Shown: piece by piece, positions 12,430-13,262 of the stretch
How the letters are laid out: the number at the start of each line of letters is the position of its first letter
Numbering within the stretch: position 1 is the stretch's first letter
Position numbers and translations under genes: made by a program
NCBI GenBank assembly: GCA_017628935.1
Contig: JAGBYC010000161.1
Span: forward strand, 1 to 13,654
DNA length: 13,654 nucleotides
Direction of reading: 5' to 3'
Source of the DNA: Clostridia bacterium
Lineage (GTDB): Bacteria; Bacillota; Clostridia; Christensenellales; Borkfalkiaceae
Notes under the pieces: model-generated
The model's database searches: none
Told to the model about the DNA's origin: nothing
What the model saw: only the letters and a program-made list of their open reading frames with translations

Positions 12430-12482
12430 ATAACCGTGCTTATTACGAAAGATAGATATTTTTGACTTAATAAGGAGTTTTT

Positions 12483-13262
12483 ATGTATTCTAACCAAACA
12501 AAAGTGGTTATACTTCAAGATAACGCCGTGGCAATTGAAGAACTTGTTGCTACGATAGGTGAAATGGATAATTTTTCGGTGGCAGGCAGTTCCGTTGACG
12601 GCGAAGAAGGTTTAAAAATTATAACTAGCGTTAAGCCAAATGTAATTATTTTAGGCTTAATTTTACAAAGCATTGACGGGTTTGAGGTTTTAAATAGGCT
12701 TAAGCAAGAAAAGTTAAACGCTAAAATAATAGTTTTAAGTTCCTTTACGCGTGACGCTATCGTTAGGCGTGCGCTTGATATGGGCGCGTCGTATTATATG
12801 GTTAAGCCGTACAAAAGTGAAATTTTAAAAGCGCGCCTTACCGAACTTGTTAGTGAAGATGCCGTTAGCCAAACAAAAACTGAAATTAAAAACGACGTTC
12901 CGTATATAAAACGCACGTCGCTTGATGAAAAAATAAGCAAAATTTTTATATCGGTTGGTATTCCACCACATATTAAAGGCTATTATTATTTGCGTGAAGG
13001 CGTAAAAATGGCAGTTGAAAGCCCCGACGTTATTAACAACATTACCAAAAAACTATATCCTAAAATAGGCGAAAAGTTTGATACAAGCGCGTCTAAGGTA
13101 GAAAGGGCTATTCGCCACGCTATCGAAGTTGCTTGGAATAGGGGCAGAATTGACGTTATAAACACTATGTTAGGCATACGCGCGTACATAGGTAACGAAA
13201 AGCCAACCAACGGTGAATTTATCGCTTTAATTGCTGATAAAATGCTACTTGAAGGGGCGTAA
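12483..13262 (+). CDS. spo0A: Spo0A-family response regulator with degenerate receiver
   Basis: Homologue of the sporulation master transcription factor. The C-terminal effector domain (about 148-259) is well conserved: GIPPHIKGYYYLREG, SASKVERAIRHAIEVAWNRG (the DNA-recognition region) and KPTNGEFIALIADK. The N-terminal receiver (5-120) keeps the fold, with Asp13, Ser86 and Lys108 (VKPY). However, the phosphoacceptor Asp of the LDIIMPHLDG-type motif is Gly58 (ILGLILQSIDG), the following Met-Pro is Leu-Gln, and the first acidic-pocket Asp is Gln12. It should not be phosphorylated in the usual way. Length (259) is near normal. Its common clostridial neighbour spoIVB is not upstream. The protein may act without phosphorylation or have lost its sporulation role; the identification as Spo0A itself is strong. 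Confidence 0.93.
   Translation: MYSNQTKVVILQDNAVAIEELVATIGEMDNFSVAGSSVDGEEGLKIITSVKPNVIILGLILQSIDGFEVLNRLKQEKLNAKIIVLSSFTRDAIVRRALDMGASYYMVKPYKSEILKARLTELVSEDAVSQTKTEIKNDVPYIKRTSLDEKISKIFISVGIPPHIKGYYYLREGVKMAVESPDVINNITKKLYPKIGEKFDTSASKVERAIRHAIEVAWNRGRIDVINTMLGIRAYIGNEKPTNGEFIALIADKMLLEGA

Follow-up and report, generated by a model that had tools for sequence, protein, structure and literature searches.

The window, by which we mean the whole stretch of 13,654 nucleotides analysed here, is one contig (C193) of a 1.18-Mb assembly in 253 contigs, 89% complete and with 6.2% contamination. It carries a spo0A gene, whose coordinates, start, stop and frame had been given correctly in the initial annotation, and the start of a second gene downstream. 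The features of this region are as follows:

12472..12477, + strand: AAGGAG, likely ribosome-binding site, read from the sequence
12483..13262, + strand: spo0A, encoding a receiver and a Spo0A DNA-binding domain (259 aa; ATG at 12483, TAA at 13260-13262)
12504..12839, + strand: receiver domain PF00072, from the profile match, AlphaFold2 and Foldseek
12516..12518, + strand: codon 12, CAA, encoding Gln where the metal-binding pair has its first acid; Asp13 is adjacent
12654..12656, + strand: codon 58, GGC, encoding Gly where Spo0A normally has the phosphorylated Asp
12738..12740, + strand: codon 86, retained Ser, Ser/Thr position of the switch pair
12795..12797, + strand: codon 105, retained Tyr, aromatic position of the switch pair
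12804..12806, + strand: codon 108, retained pocket Lys of the receiver
12933..13241, + strand: Spo0A C-terminal DNA-binding domain PF08769, 128.6-130.9 bits
13378..13653, + strand: gene for a zinc-ribbon protein with an acidic tail, start only, as the contig end cuts the gene

The deduced protein scored 248.1 bits against the full-length equivalog model TIGR02875 (cut-off 200) and 62.8 bits against PF00072 (Response_reg). Its DNA-binding half, besides matching PF08769, is 50-54% identical in Foldseek comparisons to 1fc3 and 1lq1, solved structures of the Spo0A C domain, and includes the segment SKVERAIRHAIEVA, which is more than 90% conserved among the Asp-less Spo0As of the family. The receiver was predicted by AlphaFold2 with a pLDDT of 91-98 (blocks of ten, residues 11-120) and superimposes on the Spo0A receivers 1qmp and 5wq0 at 1.0-1.2 Å for most of the chains listed. 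Named relatives in a protein search were mostly gut Clostridia, such as Pumilibacter and an uncultured Christensenella. In domain make-up, equivalog score and structural matches the protein resembles the Spo0A of Bacillus and Clostridium; unlike it, the window protein lacks the phospho-acceptor Asp, has Gln where the metal site should begin with an acid, and has Leu61-Gln62 in place of the Met-Pro that follows the site. These three departures had been noticed in the initial annotation and are all borne out, although it was silent on the retained Asp13, Ser86, Tyr105 and Lys108. Judged by its sequence, the protein is therefore a Spo0A orthologue without the phosphorylation site and not a phosphorylated response regulator.

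A receiver fold, here by prediction, with its phosphorylated Asp replaced defines the aspartate-less receivers, a described class that includes RitR, ChxR and FrzS (PMC4395418). In the available part of that survey these regulators keep the fold and often the Lys and the Ser/Tyr switch, as does the window protein; unlike it, RitR, ChxR and FrzS are not Spo0A.

We examined the distribution of the change in 121 genomes, comprising nine of the genus (one per species), 64 more of the window's family and 48 from other families of the order. None of the nine Spo0As of the genus has Asp at residue 58 (Gly in seven, Ser in one, Trp in one), and all nine have Gln12, Ser86, Tyr105 and Lys108; the seven Gly residues are spelled by four codons (GGC, GGA, GGT and GGG). 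The Trp is encoded by TGG at locus L114 of genome G002, and this residue does not occur at the phospho-site in the available part of the PMC4395418 survey.

From the 73 genomes of the family we read 71 receiver-bearing Spo0As, contributed by 69 genomes; three genomes gave no match and G026 showed only a 135-aa frame without a receiver. Residue 58 is Gly in 22, Asp in 17, Glu in 14, Ser in 12, Asn in four, Trp in one and Ala in one, so that Asp is absent from 54/71. By genus, 12 of 18 are wholly non-Asp, five wholly Asp and one mixed. Among the 54 Asp-less proteins Gly (22) exceeds Glu (14), whereas in the aspartate-less set of PMC4395418, as far as its text is available, Glu is the commonest replacement (26%) and Gly accounts for 11%. 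The initial annotation had argued against a single sequencing error and had suggested aligning orthologues; the absence of Asp from all nine genus members and from most of the family, together with Gln12 in 9/9, bears out that argument.

For the other families we used one Spo0A per genome from 42 of the 48 genomes, enlarging a set of 25 loci that had been skewed to the best C-domain scores. This comparison leaves out G118 (199 aa, without the pocket), G088b and G102b as second copies, the further Spo0A_C matches of G099, G100 and G110, and the weak or short matches of G091 and G112. Asp is present in 35/42; the seven exceptions are six Glu, including G102, whose second copy has Asp, and G120, which aligns poorly and was counted as non-Asp. 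The full canonical pocket (two acids, Asp, Ser/Thr and Lys) occurs in 28/42 Spo0As outside the family versus 2/71 within it (0/71 under an earlier alignment), both from genus g17. Fisher tests of the family against other families, which ignore kinship, gave values of 6e-14 (pocket) and 6e-10 (Asp). Even among the Asp-bearing members of the family, 15/17 lack the full acid pocket, and the loss of Asp was perhaps preceded by a weakening of the metal-binding pair. In a quick spo0A tree (96 rows, pocket columns excluded) the family groups as a single clade (support 100), and so does the genus (support 99), with the window's gene inside it, although many inner forks are weak. Parsimony on this one tree counts eight changes between Asp and non-Asp, by which the loss or replacement of Asp would have happened repeatedly.

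The complete switch set (Ser/Thr86, Tyr/Phe105 and Lys108) is found in 9/9 genus members, in 35/54 Asp-less and in 11/17 Asp-bearing Spo0As of the family, and Asp65-Gly66 is invariant among the aligned proteins, Asp-bearing Spo0As included. The receiver changes faster than the DNA-binding half in all three groups compared, with a median divergence ratio of 4.2 in Asp-less family members, 3.0 in Asp-bearing ones and 3.5 in other families (n=25), indicating that there is no runaway decay of the receiver. Within the genus, the DNA-binding half is on average 88% identical.

The loss is confined to Spo0A among the regulators read. The nine genus genomes contain 37 receiver matches, 28 of them non-Spo0A, and Asp was present in 24/24 of those read, two of the remaining four being under the cut-off; loss of the Asp is thus no habit of these genomes.

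We also examined the histidine kinases, caught by HATPase_c or HisKA only and paired with regulator lists that excluded Spo0A genes. Each of the 23 kinases of the genus has a response regulator gene no more than 4 kb away, as have 56/61 in eight control genomes, leaving 0/23 and 5/61 unpaired, respectively; control genomes G032, G084 and G103 have no unpaired kinase. These counts exclude, among kinases without a nearby regulator, frames below 200 aa or of 600-730 aa with E >1e-22, a rule aimed at SpoIIAB, GyrB/ParE and HtpG; many control rows of these kinds had been removed by hand beforehand, as had genus rows with E >1e-9. Because pairing is nearly as common in the controls as in the genus, these counts do not establish that sporulation kinases are absent, nor that losing orphan kinases brought about the loss of Asp. 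The median number of HisKA domains was 3 in the genomes of the 54 Asp-less family proteins and 5.5 in the 28 canonical outgroup genomes (Mann-Whitney p 0.0009, with kinship ignored and one genome counted twice). Four of the 121 genomes, from four genera, have no match to the HisKA profile, the only kinase profile behind this count (G029, G057, G081 and G099); all four have Glu at the phospho-site, a coincidence noticed post hoc.

The initial annotation had also raised the possibility of a second, intact spo0A carrying the function. We found none in the window's genome at its 89% completeness, where the Spo0A_C profile matches only the window gene and a 126-aa ORF without a receiver on contig C182. 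Across the family, 54/73 genomes have exactly one Spo0A_C match, three have none and 16 have a second, these second matches having been read in part. Receiver-less Spo0A C-domain proteins of about 120-140 aa are present as extra copies in several family genomes (L002 233-613, − strand, on C182; L193-L197). Separately, an 85-aa frame closely resembling the end of spo0A (L200, about 983, − strand; G001:C13:139782-139997) adjoins the zinc-ribbon and veg genes and 8 kb from a full spo0A, which suggests a local rearrangement.

Sporulation genes are widely retained. SpoIIR was found in 9/9 genus and 70/73 family genomes (one of these under the cut-off), SpoIVA in 8/9 and 69/73 (three of these weak) and SpoVAC/SpoVAEB in 8/9 and 67/73. 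The suggestion of the initial annotation that this is a lineage that no longer sporulates is therefore unsupported at genus level, and the retention of SpoVA and SpoIVA argues against a complete loss of sporulation. Alpha/beta SASPs were found in 0/73 family genomes as compared with 16/48 in the rest of the order, which argues that the spores, if made, differ. In the window's own genome, SpoIVA was not found at 89% completeness; spoIIAA, spoIIAB, a SigF-type gene and SpoVAC follow one another on contig C248, where the spoIIAB frame is interrupted after NAIVHG by a TAA (L291, C248 about 1318-1605, − strand), either a nonsense change or an assembly error. From these gaps in SASP, SpoIVA and spoIIAB, full spore resistance may have been lost, or decay may be limited to the window's species. 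SigF was dropped as a marker because TIGR02885, above its cut-off in 0/121 genomes, does not separate SigF from SigG here.

The gene spoIIAA lies upstream of spoIIAB in all seven genus loci fetched. We searched for 0A boxes upstream of spoIIAA, allowing at most one mismatch, in 21 of 23 loci (G078 and G096 gave no spoIIAA; L305 had already been set aside); the start of spoIIAA is possibly placed too early in G005, G013 and G057. The 21 regions contain 18 0A-box-like sites, of which 10 lie in seven regions of genera g6 and g7, a grouping chosen after the sites were seen; this number was reached in 0/400 shuffles that kept base composition only. In g6 and g7 together, 9/10 of the Spo0As read are Asp-less, as are 6/7 of the genomes whose regions were searched. 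The sites make it likely that Spo0A controls spoIIA in these mostly Asp-less groups. No box was found upstream of spoIIAA in 7/7 genomes of the window's genus (L291-L297), which leaves a link between Spo0A and the sporulation genes no more than possible there. The Asp-bearing G073 is also without one.

The zinc-ribbon/acidic-tail gene lies 3′ of spo0A in most genus loci of sufficient length, and its presence there extends to several other genera and families; many other spo0A loci of the family, some of them short, showed no such neighbour. We rejected it as a substitute for phosphorylation because it also adjoins Asp-bearing spo0A genes in other families and in genus g2. A block 3′ of spo0A recurs that consists of the zinc-ribbon protein with its very acidic tail, veg and a SPOCS-domain protein (L116 12279-14000; L034 7187-10471), some copies of which include what we take to be an ispE-like gene. 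The neighbours of the window's spo0A are common to the genus loci; they are presumably rplM, rpsI, truA and ECF transporter genes.

Several other explanations could account for an Asp-less Spo0A. An artefact of assembly or binning, or a contaminating contig, might be suspected in so fragmented an assembly with 6.2% contamination, but it is close to refuted, and the least probable of all, as nine genus genomes agree, the spo0A tree places the window inside the genus clade with support 99, and the neighbouring genes are common to the genus. A separate Spo0A carrying the phosphorylation-dependent function is very improbable and, for the 89%-complete window assembly, likewise close to refuted: the second Spo0A_C match of that genome, on C182, is a C domain of 126 aa without a receiver, and 54/73 family genomes have exactly one match, with three having none. 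Phosphorylation might also have moved to another residue, for instance Asp13, Asp65 or a Ser, served by a histidine or Ser/Thr kinase. The invariance of Asp65 and the retention of Lys108 and Ser86 in the genus would agree with this, but Asp65-Gly66 is just as invariant in Asp-bearing Spo0As and so needs no new role, and Gln12 disrupts the acid pair in 9/9 genus members; we regard this alternative as improbable.

A less remote, though still unlikely, explanation is relaxed selection, under which sporulation would be in the course of being lost and Spo0A would be decaying, idle or left with a minor role. It would account for the absence of SASPs from all 73 genomes, for the missing SpoIVA and the spoIIAB stop of the window's own genome, for the lack of 0A boxes in the seven genus regions, for a receiver that diverges about four times as much as the DNA-binding half, for the variety at residue 58 (Gly, Asp, Glu, Ser, Asn, Ala and Trp) and for the receiver-less frame of G026. 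However, Spo0A_C matches persist in 70/73 family genomes, as do those of SpoIVA (69/73, three weak), SpoIIR (70/73, one under the cut-off) and SpoVAC/EB (67/73), and the DNA-binding half remains 88% identical in the genus. Additionally, Gly has been preserved across four synonymous codons, and the receiver ratio of Asp-bearing relatives is not far lower.

We consider it reasonably probable instead that the window encodes a genuine Spo0A, apparently the only full-length one in the genus, that works independently of phosphorylation, with an output set mainly by its amount and maybe tuned, and that still serves a sporulation-type programme. Because the phospho-acceptor Asp is missing, the sequence excludes activation by phosphorylation at the usual site; with half of the Mg2+-binding acid pair lost as well, no histidine kinase would switch this Spo0A there. 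The receiver, which keeps its predicted fold and Ser86, Tyr105 and Lys108, would be uncoupled from histidine-aspartate phosphorylation. Gly58 is no phosphate mimic and fits control by the quantity of Spo0A made, whereas the retained switch residues fit a protein partner or a small molecule acting on the receiver, which may thus tune the output. Constitutive activity, control by amount and a new ligand, all put forward in the initial annotation, would look alike in the sequence. In B. subtilis, the receiver holds the C domain in check, and its phosphorylation and dimerisation lift this restraint. In the window protein this restraint would be relieved by other means, or be absent, and the C domain would bind DNA free of phosphate and continue to serve the programme of the retained sporulation genes. 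In its favour are the spread of the loss through the clade, its confinement to Spo0A among the regulators read, the conserved DNA-binding half and the retained sporulation genes, together with the 0A-box-like sites of g6 and g7 and, noticed post hoc, the Glu of the four genomes that gave no HisKA match. The absence of 0A boxes in the genus and of SASPs in the family, the undetected SpoIVA of the window's own genome and its spoIIAB stop all count against this explanation, as does a kinase pairing that sets the genus little apart from the controls. In other genera, Glu at the phospho-site could act as a phosphate mimic, although a change from Asp to Glu alone is reported, in the available part of PMC4395418, to be insufficient to activate Spo0A.

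According to the available parts of the sources, phosphorylation of Spo0A is the key switch by which bacilli and clostridia begin to sporulate (PMC3533761), and work on the remodelling of the Spo0 pathway concerns which kinase feeds Spo0A (PMC6136694). Among the matches listed in the open-access literature, subscription papers lying mostly outside it, none reports an Asp-less Spo0A. A close parallel is Epulopiscium, which produces live intracellular offspring with sporulation genes and, likewise, has a Spo0A beside a partial sporulation gene set whose link to true spores is in doubt; in contrast to the window's family, where most Spo0As are Asp-less and no SASP was found, its Spo0A keeps the phospho-acceptor residues and its genome keeps SASP genes (PMC3416734, from the part available).

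As far as the accessible text of PMC11536998 goes, surveys of metagenome-assembled genomes use spo0A as a first marker of sporulation potential; our results are a warning that the presence of spo0A says nothing on how, or whether, the protein is switched. The Asp-less Spo0As are also natural variants with which to probe roles of the receiver beyond accepting phosphate. More tentatively, with a chance that we put at a little under even, most of the family may have dismantled the phospho-switch of Spo0A and kept a sporulation-type programme, entering development without a phosphate signal, with the receiver serving as another kind of sensor or as a plain scaffold and the amount of Spo0A as the input. 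If true, the decision to sporulate would be possible by a route other than Spo0A phosphate.
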